Of a stretch of 26,916 nt of DNA, positions 3,327-22,206 are shown one piece after another. The DNA is from Candidatus Abyssobacteria bacterium SURF_5 (GTDB lineage: Bacteria > Abyssobacteria > SURF-5). Position 1 is the stretch's first letter. The number at the start of each line of letters is the position of its first letter. The stretch lies in NCBI GenBank assembly GCA_003598085.1, contig QZKU01000135.1, positions 1-26,916 of the forward strand, read 5' to 3'. The notes under the pieces were generated by a model, which was given only the letters and a program-made list of their open reading frames with translations, was not told the DNA's origin and did not search any database. The position numbers and the translations under genes are program-made.

Positions 3327-4514
3327 TTAAGCGGAAGCGAGGCGGATGAGTTCCTGCCGGAGGATTGGGCCGGCCTGCGGTCCTAATGATTCAAGCTCAT
3401 GGCCGATGAAATGTTTGCCTTCCTCCCAGCCGACGGGTTCGGGACTGAACTGATCGGAGGGTAGGAAGTAGCCGAGCGAATCGTTCAGTTGGCTGACAAA
3501 CAGGGTCCTTCCCCTTTGTCCGATACCCGCCACAATTCCGGGGAAGGGCTCACCGGGGATGGTGAGAATAGTAATATCGCCCACATTTACTTTCGAGATC
3601 GAGGTAACGCCGGTCGGCGGGCGCTGGCTTGTGTGGATGATGCCGGCCTCCATCATCATCTGAAATCCCGGATTTTCGATTGGGAACTGGATTTCGTGTG
3701 TGAGGACCGACAGCCGGCTGCCGCTCAGCGGATGTTCGCGAGCGGAGAGTTTTATTACTTCTTCGGCAAGTTTTCGGCCGTACTGATGCGCCTCCTCGAA
3801 TCCTTTTTCGCATCCGTAGGGCTCCATGCCGCCGCAGACGCCGAGGAGAAACAGCGAGATTCCACCCGATTCGCGGTCGAGGATCGTGCAGGCTTCTCCA
3901 GGATAGCCGGCTGATATCCTGTCGTCATGCCGCGGGGTGAGCTCGGGTTGAGCCGGATAGCTGAAAAGCGATCCAATGACGTCGTTTCCATCTTTGAACG
4001 TCAGTCGCCAGAGATCGAGATTCAGGTCGCAGGGGACGCGGTGATTTGCGACGCCGAGATTAACTTCCTCGAACGCGAACGAGGCATGAGCCGGTCTTGC
4101 CGAATCAAGGGCGGTTATGACCGCCGCGGCTGAGGTTTCCAGAAGGAATCTGTCGTACTCCTGATTGAATCCCGACTGCTCGATGGACGGCCCCCACAGG
4201 CCCATGGTATCGGGGCCGGAGTGGGTGTGAGTTGTCGCGACGAGCAATTGTGCGGGCGTGATGAAGCGCGATGCGAGCGAGGAGGCAAGGTCGAACGTGA
4301 AATCCCTCAGGAGGCCGATGAGATCAAGCGAAAGGAAAACGATACGCGCATCTTCTTTTTCGATAGTGAGGCATCTGACGAAGAGATCGTCGACCACCTC
4401 GCGCAATTGTTCGGCCTCGCCCATTTTATAGCCGGCGCGGTAGACAGGCCCTAGGCCCGGGGGCGGCGTGATTTTGGATTTGGCGGCTCCCACTCGAAAT
4501 GGTGCTGTAGTCAT
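3327..4514 (-). CDS. Neutral/alkaline ceramidase N-terminal-domain family protein
   Basis: This 395-aa protein opens with FRVGAAKSKITPPPG and has the TTHTHSGPDT segment (H96, H98), both typical of the neutral/alkaline non-lysosomal ceramidase N-terminal domain (zinc-dependent amidases). Full ceramidases are around 700 aa with a signal peptide; this one has only the catalytic-type domain and no leader, so a cytoplasmic role on another amide or ester is likely and the substrate is unknown. The start has a GGAGAG site about 6 nt upstream. It is the last gene of the five-gene minus operon, 17 nt after the PIG-L stop. Both act on amides in their families, so they may work on one substrate (inference). 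Confidence 0.82.
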   Translation of the reverse strand: MTTAPFRVGAAKSKITPPPGLGPVYRAGYKMGEAEQLREVVDDLFVRCLTIEKEDARIVFLSLDLIGLLRDFTFDLASSLASRFITPAQLLVATTHTHSGPDTMGLWGPSIEQSGFNQEYDRFLLETSAAAVITALDSARPAHASFAFEEVNLGVANHRVPCDLNLDLWRLTFKDGNDVIGSLFSYPAQPELTPRHDDRISAGYPGEACTILDRESGGISLFLLGVCGGMEPYGCEKGFEEAHQYGRKLAEEVIKLSAREHPLSGSRLSVLTHEIQFPIENPGFQMMMEAGIIHTSQRPPTGVTSISKVNVGDITILTIPGEPFPGIVAGIGQRGRTLFVSQLNDSLGYFLPSDQFSPEPVGWEEGKHFIGHELESLGPQAGPILRQELIRLASA

Positions 4515-4531
4515 ACTGGCTCTCCAGCAAA

Positions 4532-5317
4532 TTAAACCGATAGACCTCCGACGAGGTCCTTTATGTTTTCGAGGATGCCGAGCCCGCGCACGTGAAAAGC
4601 CTCTGCGAGCGGCACGTTTCCTTTTTCCCCTTCCTGTTCGGCGACGGCACGAATAGAAGCGGGGATAACTTCATCAAGCGGGTTGTCGAAAATCGGGCTT
4701 GATTTCCCGAGCACCTTCAGCCGTTCGGCCCCTTCCATCCGCATTAGTTCGAGCTGGCTGTGATAACAGAGGATCGCCTCGATTTTCTTGTCGATGAATC
4801 CGGAGATGTCGACATATGCGTTTGGACTCGGCGTTTTCGCAAAAATGATTTTTGCGACCATTGCGGTGGAAAGTCCCTGCTTGAGATGTTCGGGATGAAA
4901 CAGGTGAAAATGAGCGAAGCTGCATGCCTCGATGACGGCCTGCCCGACGGCGCGGTGGTCGGGATTCTCATCGAAATTCCAGGGATCGAGTGTGATGACG
5001 GCCGCCGGCTGGACCTCTCGCACGTGGCGGAGGATCATCTCGCGCAGTTGATGGGTCGGCTCAAGGAAATGGTTCTTGAGGCCGAGGAAGGTCACTTTTT
5101 TCACGCCGATCACGTTGCATGCGGCTAGCTGCTCTTCCCGCATCACCTTCGCCAGTTTCTTGTCGGTATCGTATGCCGTGCGGTTGAGGGTTCCCTGCTC
5201 GCCGTCGGTGACAACCAGCGTGGAGACGTCGTGGCCCTCCGAGAGCAGTTTTGCTACTGTTCCGGCGCAGAAGAAGGCCAGATCGTCCGGGTGCGGCTCA
5301 ACCACGAGATAACGCAT
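4532..5317 (-). CDS. PIG-L (LmbE-like) family deacetylase
   Basis: The 261-aa product begins MRYLVVEPHPDDLAFFCAGT, with the HPDD metal-binding motif at residues 9-12, and has the second motif NPDHRAVG about 100 residues later. These are hallmarks of PIG-L/LmbE zinc-dependent N-deacetylases, which act on GlcNAc-lipids, mycothiol/bacillithiol precursors and related amides. Start choice: ATG at 5317 is preceded by AAAGGAGG with 7 nt spacing; an upstream in-frame start at 5365 would overlap RidA and lacks this. It follows RidA by 22 nt in the operon. The substrate cannot be deduced from sequence. Confidence 0.9.
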   Translation of the reverse strand: MRYLVVEPHPDDLAFFCAGTVAKLLSEGHDVSTLVVTDGEQGTLNRTAYDTDKKLAKVMREEQLAACNVIGVKKVTFLGLKNHFLEPTHQLREMILRHVREVQPAAVITLDPWNFDENPDHRAVGQAVIEACSFAHFHLFHPEHLKQGLSTAMVAKIIFAKTPSPNAYVDISGFIDKKIEAILCYHSQLELMRMEGAERLKVLGKSSPIFDNPLDEVIPASIRAVAEQEGEKGNVPLAEAFHVRGLGILENIKDLVGGLSV

Positions 5318-5339
5318 GGGGAAGCCTCCTTTCGTTGCT

Positions 5340-5726
5340 TCATGAGTTTTTGCAGGCGATGACATCGATTTCGACTTTGATGTCGAACGGGAGCCGGCCG
5401 GCTTGGATGCAGGTGCGCGCGGGCGGATTCAGGGGAAAGAAATCCTTATACACCTCATTGAACTCGCCGAAGTTATCCATGTCGCTGAGGTAGGCAGTGA
5501 CTTTGAGCACGTGATCCATTGAGGAACCGACGTCCTCGAGGATATTCTTGATGTTTTCGAGCGTTTGGCGGGCTTGTTCCCGGAGGGAGCCGTTAACAAT
5601 CTCTCGCTTCTTCGGGTTGAGCGGTCCCTGTCCGGAGACGAAGATGAGGTCGCCGAATCCAACAACGGGAGAGTATGGCCCGACGGGGGCCGGAGCTTTG
5701 GTAGTCGGAATAATCTGCTTCATCAT
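5340..5726 (-). CDS. ridA: RidA family enamine/imine deaminase
   Basis: At 128 aa this is the standard length of the Rid (YjgF/YER057c/UK114) family. Visible hallmarks are GPYSP (Y18), FVSGQGPLNP (G32-Q33), the PPARTCIQ segment with the catalytic arginine R104, and the VEIDVIA terminus with E119. RidA hydrolyses reactive 2-aminoacrylate-type enamines released by PLP enzymes, so its place 9 nt behind a PLP-dependent threonine-synthase-like gene makes biochemical sense. Two adjacent ATGs (5726, 5723) share a GAGGTGA site; either could be used. The catalytic residues indicate an active deaminase rather than a Rid2-7 variant. Confidence 0.93.
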   Translation of the reverse strand: MMKQIIPTTKAPAPVGPYSPVVGFGDLIFVSGQGPLNPKKREIVNGSLREQARQTLENIKNILEDVGSSMDHVLKVTAYLSDMDNFGEFNEVYKDFFPLNPPARTCIQAGRLPFDIKVEIDVIACKNS

Positions 5727-5735
5727 TTCACCTCG

Positions 5736-6995
5736 CTATTCCAATTCCAGAAACGCGTCTTCTGCCGCCTCGATTACCGGCGGAGCGCTCACCATTTTTT
5801 TGGCTGAAGCCATATCCTTGAAACCGGAGCCGGTAACGATACAGCAAACGGAGTCGGCTTGATCAACTGTGCCGGAATCCCTTAACTGCTTCAATGCGGC
5901 CACAGTGGCCGCACTTGCAGGTTCGGCAAAGACGCCGGCCTCTTGAGCAAGCAGCTTTTCGGCCTGCAGCATTTGTTCGTCGGTGACCGAAAGGGCGATC
6001 CCGCCTGAGAGTCTGACTGCGGGAATGGCGGTATACGCGTCGAACAGGACGTCATCGGCGATTGCGCCCGCGATGGTGGGTTTCACTTCGACGGGAGATG
6101 CGATGGTTTCGGCCGGAGAAAGGTTTCGGCTCAAGGCATTGACCAGAGGGGTACAGGCTGAGGATTGGACCCCCACGAGGCGTGGGACGCGCCGGCACAG
6201 CCCGAGTTCCTTTAATTCGGAAAATCCGCGCCACAGGGCGCCCAGCAGACCGCCTCCTCCAACCGGCGCGATGATCCAGTCGGGCAATTCCGCTTGCTCG
6301 ACCAATTCATACGCTATGGTTTTGGCGCCCTCCACCTGATACGGGTTATAGAGGCCGGTGGTGGACAGCAGGCGCCAACCCTTTCTCTCTGAACATTTCA
6401 GCACCAGCTTAAAAATACGGCTTGAGGAAAGCGTATTCACCTTATGGAAGACAGCGCCGTACATGCGGGCCTGCACGAGTTTTTCATCGGGCGCATTCGA
6501 GGGTGCGAACACGAAGCACCGGATCCCCGCGATCGCGGAATATGAAGCGGCTGAGGCCGCCACATTTCCGGAAGAGACGACAGCAACGGTGCGGGCGCCT
6601 GCCTCATGCATCTTAGAGACGCTGAGGGTAATCTGTCGATCCTTGAATGAACCGGTCGGATTAACGGTCTCGTTTTTCAGCAGCAATATGCGGATTCCAA
6701 TCGTTTTGGCCAGCCTTGAAGAATTAATCAAAGGGGTCAGCCCCTCTCCCTGAGAGACGATCCATTGAGGGTCGTTGAGCGGAAGCAGCTCGAAATATTT
6801 CCAGAGAGACTGAGAAAACGGGGCCGGCAATTCGGGCTGCAAGAATTGTGGCGCCGGCAGACGCTCGAGATTGATCGAGACGACCGTGGGAGCATGACAG
6901 CGGTCGCACGTAAATGTGCCAGGAGAATACTGAGCGGAACACGCCGGGCACTTGAGCGAAAATTTTTCTGCAGGACGATTAGCGCGTTTTTTCAT
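5736..6995 (-). CDS. thrC: Threonine synthase-like PLP-dependent enzyme
   Basis: The 419-aa product has an N-terminal zinc ribbon (CPAC at 16-19, CDRC at 30-33), then the fold-type II PLP core: NPTGSFKDR with Schiff-base lysine K118, SSGNVAASAASY, and a glycine-rich phosphate loop APVGGGGLLG. The layout fits archaeal/plant-type threonine synthase, which makes threonine from O-phosphohomoserine; cysteate synthase and other paralogs share it, so the reaction is not certain, especially as no hom or thrB is adjacent. Start: ATG at 6995 forms an ATGA overlap with the upstream stop (6992-6994), implying translational coupling; no separate SD is seen. Longer in-frame starts would run into the upstream gene. 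Confidence 0.85.
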   Translation of the reverse strand: MKKRANRPAEKFSLKCPACSAQYSPGTFTCDRCHAPTVVSINLERLPAPQFLQPELPAPFSQSLWKYFELLPLNDPQWIVSQGEGLTPLINSSRLAKTIGIRILLLKNETVNPTGSFKDRQITLSVSKMHEAGARTVAVVSSGNVAASAASYSAIAGIRCFVFAPSNAPDEKLVQARMYGAVFHKVNTLSSSRIFKLVLKCSERKGWRLLSTTGLYNPYQVEGAKTIAYELVEQAELPDWIIAPVGGGGLLGALWRGFSELKELGLCRRVPRLVGVQSSACTPLVNALSRNLSPAETIASPVEVKPTIAGAIADDVLFDAYTAIPAVRLSGGIALSVTDEQMLQAEKLLAQEAGVFAEPASAATVAALKQLRDSGTVDQADSVCCIVTGSGFKDMASAKKMVSAPPVIEAAEDAFLELE

Positions 6996-7984
6996 AGATC
7001 GGAAATAAGGCTGTCGATGATCGCGGGCGAGAATTCCCGCTCGGTGATAATGGTTCGCGGGAGGCCTTCGTCGCGGCAATACGCCGGGAGTGCGGCGAGT
7101 ATTTCTGGAAGCTCCCGCGCTTCGAGCCCGATGTCAGACGGTCGATAGAGCACGCCGAGCCGGTCAACGAGTCCCTTGAGCCAGTCGGCTTTGTTGTTCT
7201 GGAGCCTTGCCATGAGGATCATACCAAGGGAGACAAGCTCGCCGTGAACAAAATGCTTTCCGGTCACATGTTCGGCGGCGTACGCGAAGAAATGTTCCGA
7301 TCCCTCTTCCGGCCGAAAATTTCCGAGCTCGAGGCACAGGTCGTTTTCTTCTTCGAAAAGCTCGACCAGTTTTCGGATGCCGGTCTTGTTCACCTCGCAA
7401 ATATCGCCCGCGCTTGATTCGAGTTTCGCGATGATCTCCGTACCGCGACGCGCAAGCGAAGGGGAATATAATTCTGCGTCCCGTTCATATCCGATTTTCC
7501 AGTCAAATGAGGCGGTATGGACGGAGAGGATATCGGCTGATCCGGCGCGATTGAGGCGTTTGGGCGCGGCGGAGATCAAGGTGAAATCGATGAGGATTGC
7601 GGCGGCGTGCGCGTTGCCGACGTTGCGAACCCTTCTTCCCTCACGCACGGCCACCAGGTGGGTGACGCAGGCGTCGACTGAAACAATCGAGGGAATGAGA
7701 ATGAGCTTGGAGGAACGCTTCCAGGACAGATATTTGGCGAAGTCCATGCACGAACCCCCGCCGATCCCGACGATGCAGGAAAAAGAAGGCAAGCTCGATT
7801 CGACGCGGTCGAGGTATTCGCGTTCCATTCTTTCCACGAAAACGACATGGTCCGGAGAGGCAGGCAGTCGCGGGGAAGCCAATTGCCACGGCAGCTCCAT
7901 GGTAGCGACCACTGTGTGGCGGGGCTCGTAATCGAGCGATTCCAGAAGGTGGCTTCCGAAATGCAATTCAGGATGCGTTTTCAT
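6992..7984 (-). CDS. sn-Glycerol-1-phosphate dehydrogenase-like (AraM/EgsA family)
   Basis: The 330-aa product belongs to the iron-containing alcohol dehydrogenase superfamily: VGIGGGSCMDFAKYLS (NAD-binding loop), GSADILSVHTASFDWK (metal ligand D151), SEHFFAYAAEH (H231) and FVHGELVSLG (H247). The D...DWK and SEH...HGE..SLG pattern is closer to sn-glycerol-1-phosphate dehydrogenases (archaeal EgsA, bacterial AraM) than to ordinary Fe-ADHs. These reduce dihydroxyacetone phosphate to G1P. Start: ATG at 7984 gives the family-typical N-terminus MKTHPELHFG; an upstream ATG at 8047 would include the promoter sequence. First gene of the operon. Exact substrate is uncertain. Confidence 0.82.
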   Translation of the reverse strand: MKTHPELHFGSHLLESLDYEPRHTVVATMELPWQLASPRLPASPDHVVFVERMEREYLDRVESSLPSFSCIVGIGGGSCMDFAKYLSWKRSSKLILIPSIVSVDACVTHLVAVREGRRVRNVGNAHAAAILIDFTLISAAPKRLNRAGSADILSVHTASFDWKIGYERDAELYSPSLARRGTEIIAKLESSAGDICEVNKTGIRKLVELFEEENDLCLELGNFRPEEGSEHFFAYAAEHVTGKHFVHGELVSLGMILMARLQNNKADWLKGLVDRLGVLYRPSDIGLEARELPEILAALPAYCRDEGLPRTIITEREFSPAIIDSLISDL

Positions 7985-7990
7985 TGCAAG

Positions 7991-8018
7991 AGTATACCAT
8001 AAGACAGGAGCGCCGCAA
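7991..8018 (-). promoter_or_regulatory. Sigma-70-type promoter, apparently giving a leaderless mRNA
   Basis: On the minus strand TTGCGG (8013-8018), a 16-nt spacer and TATACT (7991-7996) are followed after only 6 nt by the ATG at 7984. Initiation 6-7 nt past the -10 box would fall on or next to the A of the ATG, and no Shine-Dalgarno sequence precedes it. This supports both the 7984 start and a leaderless first gene of the five-gene operon. Confidence 0.5.
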
Positions 8019-8065
8019 CAAAATTTTCGTTGTGTGAGATGCTGCACAAGGCGAGTTGGAGCGAG

Positions 8066-8103
8066 AAAGGAGAAGTGAGGCTTCTTTAGCCTCCTTCTCC
8101 TTT
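8066..8103 (-). terminator. Strong intrinsic terminator-like hairpin after the cupin gene
   Basis: AAAGGAGAAG (8066-8075) pairs with CTTCTCCTTT (8094-8103) and, after one bulged T, GAGGC (8077-8081) with GCCTC (8089-8093), loop TTCTTTA. On the minus strand the stem ends in TTTCTCG, a short U-rich tail. It sits about 33 nt past the cupin stop and before the promoter of the next operon, so it separates the two units. Confidence 0.7.
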
Positions 8104-8135
8104 GTAGATAAGGGGTTTCTGTGCGCGAACGGAGG

Positions 8136-8567
8136 TTAGTCCGATTCGGCGTCGGCTTTCAACGAGCAGGGAGACGAGAAAACGAGAGCCTTCATCTTAT
8201 CCTTGGTGGCGTTGCGCCAGGTATGCACCGCCGCCGGCTCGAGATAGATGCTGTCGCCCTCACGCAAGAGGTAGAGGGCGTCGTTGACCAGCATCTCCAG
8301 TTGTCCCTTCAGGACATAAAACCATTTTTCTCCGAGATAGATTTCGGTGTGGTCGGAACTGGCGCCGGGCTCGGCAGTGATGACTGTCGCCTTTATCTCC
8401 TTGGCATTCGTTCCGTGCGTCAGCGTCTCGGTCCTGAGATTGCCATTCATGAAGTCTTGAATCAGGCCGCTCCCCCTTCGAATGAAGGAGTACCCGCCCT
8501 GTGACGAATTCTGCCGCGGGTGCGGCAGATTTTCCGACGGCTTCCTTTTTGCGGACCCTGAACCCAT
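8136..8567 (-). CDS. Small cupin-domain protein
   Basis: This 143-aa protein has a single cupin_2-type barrel: motif 1 is HTEIYLGEKWFYVLKG (H73, E80) and motif 2 is GDSIYLEPAAVHTWRN (H115). The usual second histidine of motif 1 is replaced, so metal binding, if any, uses fewer ligands. A basic, Ser-rich 20-residue N-terminus has no helix-turn-helix, so it is a stand-alone sensor or enzyme cupin, not an XRE-cupin regulator. The start has an ideal AAGGAGG, 7 nt before ATG. It lies 44 nt behind the receiver-like gene and ahead of the terminator at 8066-8103, so both are probably one sigma-54-dependent transcript. Ligand unknown. Confidence 0.85.
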   Translation of the reverse strand: MGSGSAKRKPSENLPHPRQNSSQGGYSFIRRGSGLIQDFMNGNLRTETLTHGTNAKEIKATVITAEPGASSDHTEIYLGEKWFYVLKGQLEMLVNDALYLLREGDSIYLEPAAVHTWRNATKDKMKALVFSSPCSLKADAESD

Positions 8568-8611: not shown

Positions 8612-8962
8612 TCATCCGGGGATCTCGTGCACCGCATCCAACAGTTTTGCAGTGGTTAAAGTGCCCTTGATCACCGGAAATTCAATTATGAGAGAAGAAG
8701 GCATATAATTTTCCGATTCCGCAAGATTCAGGATAATTCGGGGGTTTTTGTCCAGAGCTTTTATCGCCCCGAGCCTGGTATGGATTTCCACGTTTCGCGC
8801 TGTAGCATTGAGGACGACGAGGTCGTAGTCATTGGTCTCGAGAAGGCGAAGCATTTCGAGCATTCCGTCACAGGCATCTATGGACCAGCCGTAGCGTTTC
8901 ATTTCCTGTTTCAGATGTGCTGAGACATCCGCATCTATTTGGCAGACCAGCGCTTTATTCAT
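8612..8962 (-). CDS. Degenerate receiver-domain protein (pseudo-receiver)
   Basis: The 116-aa product follows the CheY-like pattern: MNKALVCQIDAD with acidic D10/D12, then NDYDLVVLNAT, where the phospho-accepting Asp is replaced by Asn (N52), an IILNLAE strand in place of the Thr/Ser strand, and PVIKG in place of the KP loop (K99). A domain like this is not expected to be phosphorylated and may bind partners constitutively. No output domain. Start: ATG 8962 is preferred; an in-frame ATG at 8974 lies too close to its AAAGGA, and a TTG at 9001 overlaps the promoter. It sits behind a sigma-54-type promoter next to an NtrC-family regulator gene, so it is a likely target of that system. Confidence 0.75.
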   Translation of the reverse strand: MNKALVCQIDADVSAHLKQEMKRYGWSIDACDGMLEMLRLLETNDYDLVVLNATARNVEIHTRLGAIKALDKNPRIILNLAESENYMPSSLIIEFPVIKGTLTTAKLLDAVHEIPG

Positions 8963-8996
8963 AGGAATATGCATTTTCCTTTGCCTGCGGAAGCAG

Positions 8997-9012
8997 AGCA
9001 AGGAAGGTGCCG
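8997..9012 (-). promoter_or_regulatory. Sigma-54 (-24/-12) promoter for the pseudo-receiver/cupin unit
   Basis: On the minus strand GGCAC (9011-9007), 5 nt, TTGCT (9001-8997). GG and GC are spaced by exactly 10 nt; the only departure from TGGCAC-N5-TTGCT is the first base (C for T). Predicted +1 is near 8986, giving a leader of about 24 nt to the ATG at 8962. The adjacent sigma-54 activator gene and two upstream palindromes make this the best supported promoter in the window. Confidence 0.75.
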
Positions 9013-9088
9013 CTGTTGTTCTTTGATTGCAAATTTCTGCCGCTATAGTAGTTATGCCTATTCAATGGTAATTGATTCAGGTATTTAA

Positions 9089-9105
9089 TGTCTGAAATCA
9101 AGACA
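9089..9105. promoter_or_regulatory. 17-bp palindromic site, proximal enhancer candidate
   Basis: TGTCTGAAATCAAGACA: TGTCT and AGACA arms around 7 nt. It is centred about 111 bp upstream of the predicted sigma-54 start and matches the second site at 9190-9206 in 14 of 17 positions. Position, symmetry and pairing fit an NtrC-type upstream activating sequence. Confidence 0.6.
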
Positions 9106-9188
9106 CGCTCTTGAGGGAGCCGCGGGTTTTTGGACTGAAAAAGTATGATTTTACTCTGTACCAGCTTCTGGCAAAAGGCAAGGGAGAC

Positions 9189-9207
9189 GTGTCTGGATTT
9201 AAGACAC
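9189..9207. promoter_or_regulatory. Second palindromic site, distal enhancer candidate
   Basis: GTGTCTGGATTTAAGACAC has perfect 6-bp arms (GTGTCT/AGACAC) around 7 nt. Its centre is 101 bp from the proximal site and about 212 bp upstream of the predicted sigma-54 start, just past the stop of the NtrC-family activator gene. Two like sites 100-200 bp upstream is the usual enhancer arrangement for these activators. Confidence 0.6.
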
Positions 9208-9223: not shown

Positions 9224-10583
<1,360 letters not shown>

Positions 10584-10594
<11 letters not shown>

Positions 10595-13500
10595 ACGAAG
10601 ATTTCCCTTCCCAATCCGGTTTTGTCCTGTCAAAAGTGATAGTGAAGGTGGTTCCGTTGCCGGAGGAGCTTTGGAAATCAATGCTTCCCTTCATCTCTCG
10701 GATAATATAATGACTGATTGGCAGCCCGAGTCCCGTGCCTTCGCCTTCGGGCCGGGTGGTAAAGAACGGATCGAAAATCCTATCACGAATTTCCGGCGCG
10801 ATGCCGACGCCGGAGTCTTTGAACTCGATGCGGATGCGTCCGGCTTCGTCCAGTCCGGTTGATACGGTGATTGACCCATTGCAGTCTATCGCCCTGACGG
10901 CATTGTTCCACAGGTTCACGAACACCTGTTCGAGGCGATTTGGGTCTCCTTGGAAAAGGGGGAGACGACCGTCAAGACAGAGCTCGATTTTGGGTCGTTT
11001 ATCGGACAGATGAACGACAAAATCAATCGTCTCTTTCAAGAGGTGGTTGATATCGAACAGTTCGTTTGTAGTGGCCGGAAATCTGCTGAATGAAAGCAGG
11101 TTATCGGTCACCAGATGGCACCTGCGGACCTGCCCCTCGATAATATCCAGATAGTTTTCGAATTGAGTCACAAAGCGATCATTGAGCCTTTCGGCTTCAT
11201 CCGCAAGGATGTCCCGCATGAGGCCGGTTTGAACATCGATTGCGGAAATGGGATTGTTGATTTCGTGAGCAACGCCGGCAGCCAGCTCCCCGATGGCCGC
11301 CAGTTTGCCGGACTGCAGAAGCTGGAATTCCATTTTTTTTCTTTCAGTTGCATCGCGAATCACGCCCACGTCGAATCGTTTTCCTTTCTCGAAGAAACAT
11401 CCGAGGCGCATTTCCGCATCGAAAAGAGTCCCATCCTTGCGTTTTCCCTTGAATTCGATCGTGCGATCAACGGTCTCTCCTCGTTTCAGCTTTTCGCGCA
11501 GCCAATGCAGGGTGGGATGACTTTCAGCGGCAAAGAAGGAGATGGTGTCGGTATCGCTCAGGTCATCAGATTCATCGTAGCCGAACATGGACGACAGCGC
11601 GTAATTGCGATAGGCGACCTTCTGATCTTCGGAAGTGACGGCGATTCCGTCGAGCGAAGTCTGCAGGATCGACTGCAGGTGGGCCTCTCGCTCGAGAACC
11701 TGGGAATAGAGGTTCTTGTTTTCCATGGCGACGACAAGCTGGTTCGCAATGGCCATCATCAGGTCGAGGTCTTCCGAGTCGTACGGATTCCCCGGTTTTC
11801 TGACGACGGTGAAGGTTCCCCACAGTTTATCTCGCGCGAGGAGCGGAACGATCAACGCGCTGTCGAAGCCGATCTGGCTGATGTGGGGCCGGTTTTGCGG
11901 CAGAGAGTGGATCGGCAAGTTATGCACGATGAGCGGAGTTCGCGAGAGCGCGACATGTCCGTGCAGCCCTTCGCCAATTTTGAGGTGATTGGTTCCCTCG
12001 ATGAACTGAGCGGGGAAACCTTTTTGCGACAGGTAAACGAGGGTCTGGCGCTCGTCATCGTATTTGTAGATACAGGCCGCCTCCGAGCGGGTTATTTGAA
12101 GAGCGACGTCGACAACCAGTTTAAACATGATGTTCAGATCGGGGCTCGCATTTGCCGCCTTGGCGACTTCATACAAAGCCGCCAGTTTTTCATTTCTCTT
12201 GTGAATCATTTCCTCTTGCAGCTTACGCTCGCTTACGTCGTGCGCGAGGCCGAGAAGATACTTGGGCATTCCGTTCTCGTTTAAGATAACACCTCTCTGT
12301 TCGATATGTCGGAGCTCGCCGGTGGACGTCAGGATGCGAAGGGGGAGGTCCGGCATTTTCCCATTGGAAGACATCATGCCGGTTATCCATGTGGCTGCCT
12401 TCAAATAATCGTCGGGATGAATGATACTGAGCACATTGGTTTTCCCGATCGCCTCGGGGCCATAGCCAAGCAATTGGAGAGCGTACTTATTGGCATCGGT
12501 AATCATCCAGGTTTTGAGGTCGAGGATGTAGAAGATATCGGGGGTCTCCTCGAAGATGCTGCGGTAACGTTCTTCCGAAATCCGCAGCGCTTCATCGGCA
12601 CGTTTGCGATCGGTGACATCGCGGTCGATTCCCCGGTATCCGAGGATTCGTCCGTTGGAATCGAAAAAAGGAACTCCGCTGGATTCCAGGACCACAAGTT
12701 TTCCGTCCTTGTGTCTGTTGGTTTGTTCAATTCCGGCAAAAGATTCCCTTCGTATAGCTCTTTGGCGCAGGAATTGCCAGTTCTCATCGACTTCCTCCGG
12801 CACGATAAAATCAAATGTTGGACGGCCGATTACCTCGTGAGGTTCGTATCCAAGAAGGTCTTTCACTTTTGGACTGGAGTAGCTGAAGACTCCATTGACA
12901 TCGGTCTCCCAAACCCAATCGCTGGTAATCTCGACCAGAGAGCGGAACTTCTGCTCGCTTTCCCTCAGGGCGTTTTCCATCTTCTTGCGTTCAGTCACAT
13001 CAAGCAGATTAACCAGCAAGGCGGGTTTTCCATTGTAATGGATTCTTGTTCCATATGTTTCGACCCACATAATTTCGCCGTTCTTGATAACGCACCTGAA
13101 TTGGGATTGTCCCTGCGGGGAAATGCCGGATATGCGGTCGCGCACGATTTCCAGGACAGCTTTGCGGTCTTCCGGGTGAACCAATTCTGCAAACGGCATT
13201 TCCAAGATTTCGGCACGAGAAAAGCCCGACATGAGGGAGAGCCGCTCATTCACGAACTGGAATCTCTCGTCCTGGAGCACAAAAACACCGGTCAGCGAAT
13301 TATCAACCAGCATCCGGTATCGTTCTTCGGATTCACGCAGGGCCTGTTCGGCGGCCTTTCGATCGGTGATATCGCGCGCAACATTGACGACGGCCTTTGC
13401 GACGCCTGGCCAATGGATCGAGTCGGCGTTGCTCTCGACCCATCTTATGGCGCCGCCCCCATCGATGATGCGGTATTGCGTTCCTCGGATCGATTCGCCT

Positions 13501-16007
13501 GAAATGACTTTCTCAAACCAGTTTTTTACGTTCTCGACGTCATGGGGATGAACGAGGGAGAGGAGATCGAGATGTTCCATCGGCTTGTCAGGCAGACCAG
13601 TGTAGGAGAAGTAAGCGGCATTGGCAAACAGGAGTTTTTCCTGGTCGTCCATTACGACGATGATATCATGTGATGAATTGAGAATCTGGCGGTATCGTTC
13701 TTCCGAGCGGCGCAATTCCTGTTCCATTTGTTTGCGGTCGGTAACGTCGCGAGCGACACCCAGATACGCAACCGGGTTACCGTCGTCGTCAGAAATGACC
13801 GCGCCGTTCTGTTCGACATCGAGGAAGCTGCCGTCGGCCTTGCGCATGCGGAACGGGAAATTAGGCTCCCGGTACCCTCTGACTCTGTCGAAGAGGGCTT
13901 TTGCCAATCTCTCGCAGTCATCGGGATGGATCATCGTGAGGTAATTTTGGCCGATGACGCCGGCGCGCTGAAAACCGAGGATTTCCTCGGAGAAGCTGTT
14001 TGCGCTCGAGATGGTATTTGTTTTCAGGTCAATGGTATAAATGATATCTTTTGCTTCTTCTATGAGTGTCCGATATTTTTGCTCTGACTCTTTGAGGGCC
14101 TCTTCGGCGTTTTTCCTGTCGGTAACATCGTTCAGATGGACCAGGAGAGCCGGTCGGCCCTGATAGTCGATTTTCGTTCCGAAAGATTCAAGCCAGACGA
14201 TATCCCCGCTCTTGGTGACCGCCCGGAATTCATAGTGCGCGGCGGCATCTTCACCGGACAATCTACGCGTCACGATCCGATCGACCAGTTCGCGATCTTC
14301 GGGATAAATAAGCCGTTCGAATGACGAATCAAGGAGTTCGTCCTCGGAATATCCGGACGTCTCGATGAATTTCTTATTGATGAATTTCAGGACGCCGTCC
14401 TGATTGACGAAAATGCTTGATAATGAATTATCGACGAGCATTCGATATCGCTCCTCCGACTGCCGGAGCGCTTGTTCGACAATTTTTTGTTCATTTATGT
14501 CCCGAACGGTACTCACTATCATCTGGAGGCCGGCTTCCTCGGTAATCGGAATCCATGAGTGTGAAACCCATCTGGTCTCTCCAGTCTTGGTTTGAATCCG
14601 ATACTGGAAATTGGAACCGGATTGCCCGAGCAGCGCTTGATTGAACTGTTGCCTGGCGCTAGCCAGGTCATCAGGATGAACGATCCAGGGTTGAGAGCCG
14701 GTCAGTTCCTCCGGTTCGTATCCGAGGATGTTTCTGCAGGAAGGGCTCAGATAAAGAATGTTACCGTCGGGAGCGGTAAGCATGATGATATCGTTACTGC
14801 TTTCCACGATGGTCTTGTATTTCTTTTCGCTTTCGCGCAGAGCCTTCTCGACACGCTCGCGCTGGGCAATCTCGTTCAGCAGGCGCGCATTTGTATCGGA
14901 CAATTCAGCCGTCCGCGTCTTCACTTTCTCCTCGAGCTTGTTCCTGTGAAGTTGGAGTTCCGCTTCCGCGAGCTTGCGCGCGCTGATATCGCGCATGACG
15001 ATGACCCGGCTCACCAGGCGTCCGGCCGGGTCGATCAGGGGGGAGATGCGAATATCATATGTTCCCTTTCTGGTATCCGCGTCAAGTGGAACCTCTTGTT
15101 CGAGCGCAAAGGTGGAATTGCTCAACTTGAGCTTTTCCGCGAAATCCGGAAAGGCGTCTTTGAGCTGGATTCCGATTCCATCTGACGGCGCGAGCCCGAG
15201 AAAAGTTTTGGCGGCCGGGTTTATTTCGATGATGCGGCCGAGATCATCCAGAACGATGACGCCGTCATTGATGCTTTCTATGACAGTTGCATGAACTACC
15301 GGTGCGAGGTCGCCGAGGCGAAAATGAAACAGTCCCCAGGCAAGGACCGGACTGGTGATGGTGAAAATGAAGGGAGTAATGTTCAGGTGTGGGAAAGGTG
15401 TTATACCCAGAAGGAACAGGATATTCCCGGCCCAGGGAGCCAGGACGAAGAAAAGAAGTGCGGCTGCCTGTCTGCGGTAGAGATAGGTCCTCGAAGCAAT
15501 GAACCGTTCAAAGATGAGGAGCGATCCGATAAAGATCATGAGGTAGGAATAGGCGATGTGAATCCAGACCCAGAACCCGCGCTCGGAAGATTTCACAAGG
15601 AAGGAGCCCATATCCATCAGCGTAAAGGTTCGCCAGAAAAGATGATGGAACTCATTCGTCCATACAAGGATAATCGTCGTCAGAGGGATCAGGAGGATGG
15701 CAGAAAAGATTTGCCTTGTCAGCCATTTGTTCCGCCCTGAATACTGCAGCGCAAAGACCAGCCACAGGAATGAGGCAGGCACGATTCCCAGATACTGCAC
15801 CTTATTCCAGAAAAGCTGTCCGCCCGCGGTGGCATTTGCCAGTTGGATGCCGTACGAGAACGACCAGATGCCGACTGCCAGCATCAGGAGAGAGATTGTT
15901 GTCGCCTCCCTCGTCCGCCTGGTTCTGAAAATGTAAACAGCCAGCAGGCCGGAGAAGCCGCCCGCAAGGAGCAGCGGGATCGTGTAAGGAGTATATTGCC
16001 ACGTCAT
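10584..16007 (-). CDS. Giant sensor histidine kinase: 7TM, nine PAS, GAF, HisKA, HATPase
   Basis: An 1807-aa membrane kinase. Residues about 8-232 form a seven-helix region of the histidine-kinase 7TM type. PAS domains begin near 242, 393, 516, 641, 767, 892, 1016, 1143 and 1445; a coiled coil (345-392) follows the first. A GAF domain spans about 1275-1435. The HisKA H-box is AHEINNP (H1581); the HATPase has NLWNNAVRA (N box), DSGVGI, GEGTGLGL. No receiver domain is fused. PAS units 2 and 5 (RMLVDNSL start) and 3 and 7 (DLKT) look like internal duplicates. Start ATG 16007 follows GGAGGGG by 5 nt. Overlaps the response regulator by 11 bp, so they are a cognate pair. The signal is unknown; no Cys or His haem-PAS signature is obvious. 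Confidence 0.95.
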
Positions 16008-17756: not shown

Positions 17757-18608
17757 TCAGGACGGATCAGCTTTCCCGTCCGATTTTTGCCGCCGCACCT
17801 GCTCGAGCAGATTCTTTACGCGCTCGATTTCGATTTTTTCGCGGCGGTCCTTCAGTATCTCTTCGTATTCGAGGGGATGGTGCTCCATCAATTCTTCCTT
17901 GGAGATTTTCCCATTGATCCACACTTTGCTCATGGGAAAGACTTCCGGATTGAGGTGCACGTTATACATGTGCCAAATGATGATCGCCAAGAAAGCAAGA
18001 ATCGCTTCAAAACCGTGCACGATGCGGATGATGTCAAGGACCCAGATAGGGAACAATGCGATGGCCGCTTCCTGGAACCACAGGAGTAACCCGCTGATGG
18101 CCATAACGAAGATACCCCATACGAGCGCCCAGTATTCGAATTTCTCGATAAAGTTAAACTTACCGAATTTGGGCCGTTCCTCTCGAAGGCCGAGGTTGCA
18201 CAGGAACAGGTTCAGGGCATCTTTCGCGTCCCGCGGGTTAGGAATTATCTTGAGAAAGTCGCTGTTTCCGCGGGGTGACACGATGACGTAAACGAGTTGA
18301 AACAGGCCGACGCAAATCAGCATGACGCCTGCGACACGGTGAATAATTCCTCTCAGCCAGAAGCTTTCCGGAAAAAAGAAGAGTTTATGTAAAAAGGGAG
18401 CTTCGGGGAAGACGAGGGGAATTCCGGTGAGTACGAGGGTAAAGAAACTGGTAAACAGGATGACATGCTGTATCCGCTGGGCAACGGAAAGCCGTTCGAA
18501 GACTTCGTCATCTTTGATGAGGTCTTCGTCAGTTATCGAATGTTCTGAGAGCAATCCCGCGTTTTTCGCTCTCGCAAGCAGATCCAGGTCTTCATCATTT
18601 ATTTTCAC
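17757..18608 (-). CDS. Di-haem b-type cytochrome (formate dehydrogenase gamma / b561-like)
   Basis: The 283-aa protein has four transmembrane helices (about 47-67, 88-110, 160-178, 190-215). Histidines H48 (helix 1), H90 (helix 2), H198 and H213 (helix 4) fit two b-haems, as in cytochrome b561/FdnI/PhsC-type subunits that exchange electrons with quinones. Helix 4 carries IVHGFEAILAFLAIIIWHMY. An acidic N-terminus (1-40) and a basic charged C-terminal helix flank the membrane part. Translation must begin at GTG 18608 (AAGGA 9 nt upstream); no in-frame ATG exists there. It follows the second multihaem cytochrome by 12 nt and is probably its quinol-oxidising or quinone-reducing partner. Confidence 0.88.
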   Translation of the reverse strand: MKINDEDLDLLARAKNAGLLSEHSITDEDLIKDDEVFERLSVAQRIQHVILFTSFFTLVLTGIPLVFPEAPFLHKLFFFPESFWLRGIIHRVAGVMLICVGLFQLVYVIVSPRGNSDFLKIIPNPRDAKDALNLFLCNLGLREERPKFGKFNFIEKFEYWALVWGIFVMAISGLLLWFQEAAIALFPIWVLDIIRIVHGFEAILAFLAIIIWHMYNVHLNPEVFPMSKVWINGKISKEELMEHHPLEYEEILKDRREKIEIERVKNLLEQVRRQKSDGKADPS

Positions 18609-18620
18609 GTTTCACCATCC

Positions 18621-19880
18621 TTACTGCTCGTGACTCTTTCGCTTTCGTCGCTTCGCGTAAAGATCGACCCCTATGAAGAGGAGAAATCCGCTGATCGTGG
18701 AAACGATTATAACCGTATATATTTTTTCGACGAAGTATCGGCCCATGCTGCTTTCCTTGGCTTCGGCCACGTGAACTTTTCCGATGGCGAAGTTTTTTCC
18801 GGCCTGAGGATGGCATTTTCCGCAGGTGCTCGGGATATTATCAGGATGGACCGAGGATCTCGGATCGTTCGGTGGCCGTATATCATGATAGCCGTGGCAG
18901 CTTGCGCAATTTGCCACTTTGGTATCCCCAAGTTTTGAGGCGATGCCGTGGTAAGTGCCGAGGTACGTCTTGAGGCGCTGTGATGCGAAACCGTAGCGTT
19001 TGCTCAAGGTCTCATCTTCATGGCAATTTGAACAGATTTCCGCGATGTGGGTGGCGTAGACGGCCGATTCAGGGCTTACATGCGATTTTATTGAATGTTC
19101 GCCGTGGCAGTCGGTGCAGATGGGAACGTCGTTGTTCTGCATCAGGTAATCCTGCCCGTGAACGCTTTCGACGTAAACTTGATAGATGCCCTGGTGGCAT
19201 TTTGCGCAGGTCTTCGGGATATTAAACCTATTGATCATTGAATCCGGATTGTCCGGCGGCTTGATTTTATGTGAGCCGTGACAGTCATTGCACGCGGCGG
19301 AGACGGTAAGCCCCTTTTCTTTGAGCGCCTTCATGTGAACGCTGTTCTCGTACGCCTTGATTTTCTCCGCAGCCGGCAGTTTGTGGTCTTCGACGATCTT
19401 CGTATCAGTATGACATCGGATGCAGATATCGACCATATTGAGCGGGAAGACAGATGATGCCGGATCGGAAACGCGTTTGATGTTATGTGTTCCGTGACAG
19501 GTGGAACAGACCGGGGCGGCGGGATCGCCGGCCACGAAGGCTTCGCCATGCATGCTGGTCTTGAAATCCTCGAACTCCTGGTCGTGACAGAGAGAACAAT
19601 CGACCTTCGCGAGCGGCGTGGGATGAGGAAACTCTTCGACGTCTTCCAGATCCATATGGCAATTAACGCATTCGATGCCGCCCTGGCCGTGCACGGATTT
19701 CTTGAAGACATCCGGATCTACGTTCAGTGATTTGCCATCTTCGCCCGTGAGCGAGGAGTCGTCATGACAGGAGAGACAGTCTTCGGTTGATAGAGCCGCT
19801 GCCGCGGGGGCAGCGGACACTGCGGCCAGTATGAAAGCGCACATGCAGCCGAGCAGGAAGGATTTTCTTTTAAGAAGCAT
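18621..19880 (-). CDS. Membrane-anchored 11-haem c-type cytochrome
   Basis: The 419-aa protein has a signal peptide (hydrophobic core then AAPAAAA) and eleven CxxCH motifs, starting at residues 35, 71, 95, 125, 153, 197, 225, 255, 283, 325 and 353. Several sit in a repeated SVHG...CxDCHGxHxI unit. A single C-terminal helix (about 387-405) with a basic tail (RRKRK) anchors it, haems facing the periplasm. Start ATG 19880 overlaps the previous stop by 11 bp, so the genes are coupled. It is a paralog of that upstream cytochrome. Likely role: periplasmic electron transfer with the downstream cytochrome b; the terminal donor or acceptor is unknown. Confidence 0.93.
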   Translation of the reverse strand: MLLKRKSFLLGCMCAFILAAVSAAPAAAALSTEDCLSCHDDSSLTGEDGKSLNVDPDVFKKSVHGQGGIECVNCHMDLEDVEEFPHPTPLAKVDCSLCHDQEFEDFKTSMHGEAFVAGDPAAPVCSTCHGTHNIKRVSDPASSVFPLNMVDICIRCHTDTKIVEDHKLPAAEKIKAYENSVHMKALKEKGLTVSAACNDCHGSHKIKPPDNPDSMINRFNIPKTCAKCHQGIYQVYVESVHGQDYLMQNNDVPICTDCHGEHSIKSHVSPESAVYATHIAEICSNCHEDETLSKRYGFASQRLKTYLGTYHGIASKLGDTKVANCASCHGYHDIRPPNDPRSSVHPDNIPSTCGKCHPQAGKNFAIGKVHVAEAKESSMGRYFVEKIYTVIIVSTISGFLLFIGVDLYAKRRKRKSHEQ

Positions 19881-21126
19881 TCCTTCGTCTAAACCTCCTG
19901 ATAATGTCCGGGATTACCCAGATAAAGGAGACAAACAGGAGCCCGATGAACAGCCAAACGAACATTTGGCGCACGTAATAGGGGCTGCCGGATTCTTTCT
20001 TGTTGACATCGACATGTATTTTTGCCGAGGCTACTTTTGGAGAAATTCCGGGATGGCAGCTGGCTTTGCCGCAGGTTGCGCTGAGGTTCATTGGGTTGAC
20101 GGACGATTTCGGGTCGGACGGCGGGCGGACATCATGATGTCCGTGGCAACTTGCGCAATTCGCCGCGGTCTTGCTTCCGTAACTGGTTGCAATGCCGTGG
20201 AAGCTTTGCTGATAAGTTGAGGTGCGGTCAACGGGTACATCGTACTTCGCCATAATACCGGCTTCAGAGTGGCATTGAGAGCAAACGGAAGCTATCTTTC
20301 CTTCTGCGGGAATGGAGATTTTGTGTTCGCCGTGACAGTCGGTGCAAGTTGGCGCATCGGCGATTTGATTCTCCATCGCGGCGACTCCGTGAATCGACTG
20401 TTTGTAGGTATTAAATATGCCGAGATGGCATTTCCCGCATGTTTCAGGGTTTCGCGCTCTGAGGTTGGGCGTACCCGCCGGTTGAATGTCGTGAACCCCA
20501 TGGCAATCGGTACACACTGCGGCGAAATCGATGAGGCCGGCTTGATAGAGACCTTTTCCGTGAACGCTCTGCTCATATTCCTGGAAGGGTTTTTCGGCGT
20601 GGATATGGTGCTTCACAACCACCTGCATATCTTCATGGCAGATTGCGCAGGTTCGAGGGATATTGGCGCGATAGACGTTGGATTCAGGATCTGATTTGGG
20701 TCGTATATTATGTCGGCCGTGACAGTCGGTACAGGTAGCTCCGTCATCGATTCCGGCGCGCCGCGCGACTCCGTGAACGCTGTCTTTGTACTGATCGAAG
20801 GGGGAGAAATCCGGAGCTCCCATGGCATTGCCCTTGACGTGACACCGGTCTGTGCAGTTTACTTTTTCCGGATATCTCTGATGGGGAGCCTCGCCGACCG
20901 CGTGTGCGACTTCGTGGATATCGCTATGACAATCGACGCAGTCCTGGCCGGAATGAACCGAATTTTTCAAGATGTCCAGATCAACGAAAGGCGCCGCAGA
21001 ATTCCTGTGGTCGCCGGAATGGCAGCCGACGCAGTCATTCCACTTCGCTTCAGCCGCACTCACAATGGCGGGGGGAAAAGCGAACAGGACAAAAGACAAA
21101 AAAACAACCACTCGTTTTGGATGCAT
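19870..21126 (-). CDS. Membrane-anchored 11-haem cytochrome with CX3CH and CX4CH sites
   Basis: The 418-aa protein starts at ATG 21126 (MHPKRVVVFLSFVLFAF, signal peptide, cleavage after VSA or SAA); longer in-frame starts would lie inside the promoter and leader. It has nine CxxCH motifs plus CTDRCH (residues 91-96, CX3CH) and CGKASCH (352-358, CX4CH), so probably eleven haems. CX4CH is known from tetrahaem cytochrome c3; CX3CH is rarer. A C-terminal helix (about 388-406) and RRFRRRN tail anchor it. Haem spacing and the DCHGxHxI repeats match the next gene, pointing to tandem duplication. First gene of the three-gene electron-transfer operon. Confidence 0.92.
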   Translation of the reverse strand: MHPKRVVVFLSFVLFAFPPAIVSAAEAKWNDCVGCHSGDHRNSAAPFVDLDILKNSVHSGQDCVDCHSDIHEVAHAVGEAPHQRYPEKVNCTDRCHVKGNAMGAPDFSPFDQYKDSVHGVARRAGIDDGATCTDCHGRHNIRPKSDPESNVYRANIPRTCAICHEDMQVVVKHHIHAEKPFQEYEQSVHGKGLYQAGLIDFAAVCTDCHGVHDIQPAGTPNLRARNPETCGKCHLGIFNTYKQSIHGVAAMENQIADAPTCTDCHGEHKISIPAEGKIASVCSQCHSEAGIMAKYDVPVDRTSTYQQSFHGIATSYGSKTAANCASCHGHHDVRPPSDPKSSVNPMNLSATCGKASCHPGISPKVASAKIHVDVNKKESGSPYYVRQMFVWLFIGLLFVSFIWVIPDIIRRFRRRNAS

Positions 21127-21243
21127 TATTCGATCCGGAAATTTGTTGTTCTTAGTTCTCGACCATCGAGGTGAGGAGTGAAAAAGACTCGACAACAGCT
21201 TTCCCCAATTCAGGCTCTTGGCCTCCGGCAGGAGGTTGATCGT

Positions 21244-21273
21244 ATTATAGCACACCGTCAGGACAAAAAACAA
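21244..21273 (-). promoter_or_regulatory. Promoter of the multihaem cytochrome operon
   Basis: On the minus strand TTGTTT (21268-21273), an 18-nt spacer, and a perfect TATAAT (21244-21249). The predicted start near 21237 gives a leader of about 110 nt, which contains small hairpins (CCTCC-TGCC-GGAGG and CTCGA-TGG-TCGAG) before the ATG at 21126. Confidence 0.6.
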
Positions 21274-21437
21274 GCGATTTTTGTTTGATAAATGTGACAT
21301 CCCCCTTGTGCGATATTCACAAGAATTCGGATGAGGCATGAAGAAGGCAAGAGCCAAGATTTTTGGGAGGCCGCAGGTTAAGATTTCTTTTTTGCCTGCG
21401 CGAGTACGGAATGAGCCATGGGAAGAATAGTATGCTT

Positions 21438-21798: not shown

Positions 21799-22206
21799 TC
21801 AAGGGCCGCTTCCGCTTTCAGCGCTGGTTTGTCCCGTCGCCTGGGCCTCGATTGTACTGATGACGCGCATCAATTCCTCGTATTTGATCGGCTTTGAGAG
21901 GCGCTGCATTCCGTCCAAACTGGCTTCATCCAAGTATCTATTGATATCTCCGTGGGCGGTTGTAAGGATCACGGGGATACGCGGTTTCAGGGTTTTAATT
22001 CTATTAAGCAAATTTACGCAACAGCTCTTCAGCAAGAACAGGTCGGTAATGATAAAATCAAATTTCCACCGGCTCAGCCGATTGAGGGCCTGTTCTTCAG
22101 TCGAAGCCACGACCACGTGGTATCCGTCTTCTCGCAATATTTTTGCCAGAGCCACGAGTGCATTCCGCTCGTCATCCACTAAAAGAACTGTCTTCGAAGA
22201 TGCCAA
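21799..22206 (-). CDS. Receiver-only (CheY/Spo0F-like) response regulator
   Basis: The 135-aa product is one receiver domain: VLLVDDERN (D11, D12), phospho-acceptor D55 in FIITDLFLL, Thr strand ILTTAHG and K105 in LSKPIKYEEL. A Ser/Gly-rich tail (about 122-135) carries no output domain. Unlike the pseudo-receiver at 8612, all catalytic residues are present, so it should be phosphorylated, perhaps in a phosphorelay. Translation starts with TTG 22206, preceded by AGAGG at about 6 nt; no ATG or GTG is available before the conserved VDD. It is an orphan with no kinase beside it; the nearest is the large kinase at 10584-16007 (inferred link only). Confidence 0.88.
   Translation of the reverse strand: MASSKTVLLVDDERNALVALAKILREDGYHVVVASTEEQALNRLSRWKFDFIITDLFLLKSCCVNLLNRIKTLKPRIPVILTTAHGDINRYLDEASLDGMQRLSKPIKYEELMRVISTIEAQATGQTSAESGSGP

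Follow-up and report, generated by a model that had tools for sequence, protein, structure and literature searches.

NtrBC and ZraSR are textbook examples of NtrC-family two-component circuits. In Desulfovibrio vulgaris, many local circuits of this family have been catalogued in which the sigma-54 targets lie beside the activator gene (PMC4641369). Pseudo-receivers, in turn, are defined as having a receiver fold but lacking the D site along with further residues of the active site; in the CmrRST system of Clostridioides difficile, the two-component system may act by altering the expression of a pseudo-receiver encoded next to it (PMC12632262). In the genome description of the lineage considered here (PMC6121073), two-component systems and sigma factors go unmentioned. 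We analyzed a window—the whole stretch of 26,916 nt—from an uncultured deep-subsurface bacterium of this lineage, with a whole genome of 5.1 Mb (G000). It is our confident, though not certain, view that the window carries a local, single-target sigma-54 two-component circuit driving an operon for a pseudo-receiver and a cupin. On the strength of comparative genomics, the locus provides an activator of a candidate lineage with a predicted operator, promoter and target.

Gene order and the kinase–activator pair

Our comparison set consisted of three genomes of the phylum, from three genera of the same family: that of the window (G000) and two relatives (G001 and G002), one of which is Candidatus Abyssobacteria SURF_17. 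The gene order kinase, activator, receiver-like protein, cupin, glycerol-1-phosphate-dehydrogenase-like protein, PLP enzyme, RidA, PIG-L deacetylase and ceramidase-like protein is kept in all three; in the window, the kinase, activator, receiver-like and cupin genes share one orientation. Compared with the window, the two relatives have orthologues with identities of 67 and 70% for the activator, 42–48% for the receiver-like product and 44–48% for the cupin. The intergenic DNA between the activator and receiver-like genes, in turn, has diverged among the three genomes except for the predicted elements. The features of the locus are as follows.

10584–16007, minus strand: sensor histidine kinase, 1807 aa; Pfam matches to an N-terminal 7TM region (HisKA_7TM), at least seven PAS domains, GAF, HisKA and HATPase_c
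9224–10594, minus strand: NtrC-type activator; Pfam matches to a receiver, a sigma-54 AAA+ domain (GAFTTA) and a Fis-type HTH
9190–9206, no strand assigned: distal 17-bp palindrome TGTCTGGATTTAAGACA, predicted upstream activating site; centre at 9198, 200 bp from the C of the -12 element
9089–9105, no strand assigned: proximal 17-bp palindrome TGTCTGAAATCAAGACA, predicted upstream activating site; centre at 9097, 99 bp from the C of the -12 element
8997–9012, minus strand: predicted -24/-12 (sigma-54) promoter element CGGCACCTTCCTTGCT; GG at 9011–9010, GC at 8999–8998, predicted start at about 8986
8612–8962, minus strand: predicted stand-alone aspartate-less pseudo-receiver, 116 aa; three-orthologue alignment, AF2 and Foldseek, ATG at 8962
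8136–8567, minus strand: small cupin (Cupin_2); Pfam E 2.5e-12, alignments
8062–8105, minus strand: hairpin that probably terminates the two-gene operon downstream of the cupin; both relatives have a strong counterpart in this interval

Elsewhere in the window, two neighbouring genes (18621–21357) encode products rich in CxxCH-type (haem-binding) motifs, and a predicted membrane protein is encoded beside them (17757–18608). We also noted that L065 (JACRIR010000148.1) is titled Candidatus Poribacteria, yet groups with the family of the Candidatus Abyssobacteria genome; the label is probably wrong.

The stop of the kinase gene overlaps the start of the activator gene (ATGCCTCATGA), an arrangement also found in G001 and, by ORF ends, in G002. 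Kinase orthologues measure 1807, 1754 and 1683 aa, a variation in length suggesting that sensor domains have been gained and lost. The activator matches PF00072, PF00158, PF25601 and PF02954, every one above its cut-off, and the motifs GESGVGKE, LLIDE(I/V)GE, FRxDLFYRL, VDDE and VD(V/I), the receiver phospho-aspartate among them, are kept in the three orthologues; Walker A and B, the arginine-finger region and the phosphorylatable receiver site are thereby all represented. The HTH helix, GISRxRLYxLLK, is conserved among the orthologues, whereas the closest paralogue, 46–47% identical to the activator, differs in this segment (GISRPKLYRKMLK).

The sigma-54-contacting loop reads GAFTTA in all three activator orthologues and GAFTGA in the closest paralogues. 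In our literature search, neither a GAFTTA loop nor threonine at that position turned up in any publication. In NorR, variants of G266 (D, N, Q, S, C and M) still permit activation (PMC2941729), and GAFTDA and GAFTHA are present in Desulfovibrio activators judged functional (PMC4641369). Since the position tolerates other residues in these proteins, GAFTTA is, by analogy, a caveat to sigma-54 activation rather than a refutation of it. As a variant of the sigma-54-contact motif conserved in nature, it is also open to direct testing.

Palindromes and the -24/-12 element

The first-pass annotation had described two 17-bp palindromes, 14 of 17 positions identical and with centres 101 bp apart, upstream of the receiver-like gene. 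Both are present as described; the placing of their centres about 111 and 212 bp upstream of the start agrees with the implied start near 8986, and the activator gene does end just past the distal site, with its stop at 9224 lying 18 bp beyond. These are the only two occurrences of TGTC-N9-GACA in the 26.9-kb window. Dinucleotide shuffles of the intergenic region (n = 5000) yielded one such pattern in 0.2% of cases and two in none. The strict palindrome TGTCTGN5MAGACA has four occurrences genome-wide (5.1 Mb): the pair at the locus and two within coding genes.

Missing palindromes in relatives with syntenic genes had been set beforehand as a refuting outcome; both relatives in fact keep two sites of this kind, together with a -24/-12 element. 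G002 carries TGTCCTGATTCAGGACA and TGTCCACAAACAAGACA, with centres 212 and 110 bp from the C of the -12 element, while G001 carries TGTCCTGAATCAGGACA and the degenerate GATCTGCAATCAAGACA, with centres at 211 and 89 bp; in the latter, proximal site, it is one half-site that is degenerate. A matrix trained solely on the two sites of the window picks out a pair in each relative (P for the best site of 0.0008 and 0.0004 against shuffles; a second site in 0 of 5000). Moreover, in an alignment-free comparison, the palindromes emerged as the top shared 17-mers of the intergenic region in each of the three genomes.

The claim of a near-consensus -24/-12 element was likewise borne out: CGGCACCTTCCTTGCT fits TGGCACG-N4-TTGCW at 10 of the 12 specified bases and is the only GG-N10-GC in the intergenic region. 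In shuffled intergenic regions (n = 3000), a GG-N10-GC with 10 of 12 matches arose in 0.7% of cases and one with 9 of 12 in about 3%. Counterparts occupy the matching place in G001 (CGGCATTACTATTGCT) and G002 (TGGTATCCTGATTGCA), giving consensus scores of 10, 9 and 9 of 12 across the three genomes, with P of about 0.01–0.03 each. All three genomes contain rpoN (PF04552 above its cut-off); one holds two sigma-54 genes (G002:C113 and G002:C12). Because the layout is kept in all three genera of the lineage available for comparison, the predicted sigma-54 switch is very probably real.

A search for a wider regulon ran three patterns over the three genomes (the strict one, a degenerate one and a consensus allowing up to three mismatches) and returned many weak places; a -24/-12 element was counted as near a site if it lay within 350 bp and matched at 9 or more of the 12 bases. 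None of the palindrome-like sites fetched from outside the locus had such an element nearby, except TGTCCATCTCTCAGACA in G002:C87, which is accompanied by a good -24/-12. As this one place is about the number that chance predicts, we rejected a wider regulon, and the predicted circuit looks local and single-target, although weaker second targets may exist. The three-mismatch search exceeded its reversed-pattern control (35 versus 6 in G000, with similar figures in G001 and G002), likely owing to base-composition bias. Additionally, a search for paired palindromes in 98 genomes returned this locus from G000 and G002; hits in other genomes differ from it in palindrome sequence and were taken as chance or tandem repeats. 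Finally, the locus of the closest activator paralogue is without such sites, apart from a lone match in G001 that falls between kinase-like segments.

Products and extent of the predicted operon

A conserved start codon at 8962 places the coding region of the receiver-like gene at 8612–8962, a minor correction to the first-pass annotation. The receiver assignment held for the fold, but not for a phosphorylatable site. The AF2 model reached a pLDDT of 75.7 and a pTM of 0.73, with one of five models confident, and its best PDB match in Foldseek was the receiver TrrA (TM 0.72–0.75). Weak profile matches pointed to receivers as well, FrzS structures among them, and the Pfam receiver score (PF00072) was 17.3, below the cut-off of 30.2. 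In the three orthologues, the acidic pair DD of receivers is replaced by QI, RA and RL, and the phospho-aspartate by N, N and S. With the receiver fold kept and these residues replaced, the product is, as judged from its sequence, an aspartate-less pseudo-receiver under the published definition (PMC12632262), and one predicted to be incapable of accepting phosphate on aspartate. The family appears lineage-restricted, its profile giving matches in 3 of the 241 genomes searched. Another stand-alone receiver gene in the window (21799–22206) has a normal Pfam receiver match.

The cupin assignment stands as far as Cupin_2 membership is concerned, but the metal ligands of motif 1 have been lost: compared with TM1459-type cupins, the His/His/Glu(His) ligands of this motif are absent or unconserved, and only the motif-2 histidine (H115, in HxWRN) is invariant. 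The product thus falls outside the metal-dependent cupin enzymes; its structure model is of low confidence (pLDDT 64) and was set aside. Since neither the pseudo-receiver nor the cupin keeps a recognisable active site, both most likely act via protein or ligand binding.

The terminator that had been proposed after the cupin gene was recovered as a strong hairpin in all three genomes. Beyond it, a TGnTATACT element (7986–8020, minus strand; same place in L058 and L059) precedes the glycerol-1-phosphate-dehydrogenase-like gene, its last base lying 6–9 nt from the ATG in 3/3 genomes. This conserved spacing suggests that transcription of the gene probably starts from a separate promoter and gives a message with little or no leader. 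We rejected an operon continuing into the downstream enzyme genes, given the intervening hairpin and this conserved element. Those genes form a conserved cluster (3327–8047, minus strand), whose synteny extends across all three genera, for a glycerol-1-phosphate-dehydrogenase-like protein, a threonine-synthase-like PLP enzyme, RidA, a PIG-L deacetylase and a ceramidase-N-like protein. At the other end of the operon, the stretch from the activator to the receiver-like gene shows no predicted terminator, so the operon may also be expressed at a low level, alongside sigma-54 control, by read-through from the kinase/activator operon.

Proposed circuit, alternatives and known systems

In the circuit we propose, the membrane-anchored multi-PAS kinase would phosphorylate the NtrC-type activator, whose dimers would bind the two TGTC...GACA palindromes roughly 100 and 200 bp upstream of the -12 element. 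The activator would then form a ring and, through DNA looping, remodel the RpoN polymerase at the -24/-12 promoter, switching on the two-gene operon of pseudo-receiver and small cupin that ends at the hairpin. For this local circuit, suggested in the first-pass annotation, the parts, the synteny and the conservation were confirmed, while the chain from kinase to activator to operon is drawn from gene neighbourhood. From sequence we infer binding by this activator, dependence on RpoN and pairing with the kinase; the proposed steps, from phosphotransfer and the docking of dimers on the 17-bp dyads to looping and the remodelling of RpoN polymerase, are modelled on what is known of the family.

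The elements could be real and yet serve another master, with the palindromes being bound by a different NtrC-like activator or by some unrelated regulator that acts as a dimer, while the local pair controls something else. Each genome encodes at least 28 strong matches to NtrC-like proteins, so another activator could act at the locus. However, the sites stay beside the activator gene in three genera, with the HTH helix conserved, and they are essentially unique to the locus—as expected of a dedicated local activator and not of a global regulator; we regard this alternative as unlikely. The receiver-like and cupin genes might also be the tail of a kinase–activator operon transcribed from an upstream promoter, the palindromes then acting as an RNA or repressor element. 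Such an arrangement would suit the co-orientation of the four genes without a separating terminator, and the two palindromes are able to pair mutually in RNA. Nevertheless, the -24/-12 element recurs at a matching distance in all three genomes, and what is conserved is two separate TGTC/GACA dyads with no T run, making this explanation very improbable. Coincidence in both the palindromes and the GG-N10-GC can hardly be credited: shuffled intergenic regions of like size do yield the latter at the 9-of-12 level with the frequency given above, but two sites and a promoter are each conserved across the three genera, and the comparison contradicts chance.

Returning to the local sigma-54 circuit as the preferred reading, the simplest guess for its output is perhaps feedback of the operon products on the kinase or the activator. 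A more elaborate hypothesis, which we consider doubtful, holds that the pseudo-receiver and the non-catalytic cupin are the sole dedicated sigma-54 target and jointly bind back to the kinase or the activator, forming a module for ligand sensing or for feedback that is set by dose. If true, the level of synthesis would be the only control on this pseudo-receiver.

The system is a well-supported case of a common kind, set apart by having a pseudo-receiver as its predicted output and by a conserved loop that reads GAFTTA. As in the local NtrC-family circuits, a kinase and an NtrC-type activator accompany enhancer-like sites about 100–200 bp upstream, a -24/-12 element and an adjoining target operon. 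Unlike in those circuits, the sites (TGTCYTGAWTCARGACA-like) were not matched to a named activator in our analysis, the loop reads GAFTTA, and the predicted output is a pseudo-receiver with a cupin, whereas the known circuits control enzymes, transporters or small RNAs. The pseudo-receiver resembles the receiver domain of FrzS (PMC1974792; reviewed in PMC12632262) in having a receiver fold without the phospho-aspartate, and it differs from FrzS-type proteins in being a stand-alone, lineage-restricted single domain that is encoded next to a two-component pair and has a predicted sigma-54 promoter to itself. A parallel in concept to a two-component system that would change the amount of a neighbouring pseudo-receiver is the idea put forward for CmrRST (PMC12632262); CmrT, however, is an OmpR-family response regulator, whereas the protein described here consists of one domain, has no output domain attached and is predicted to be under sigma-54-type control.
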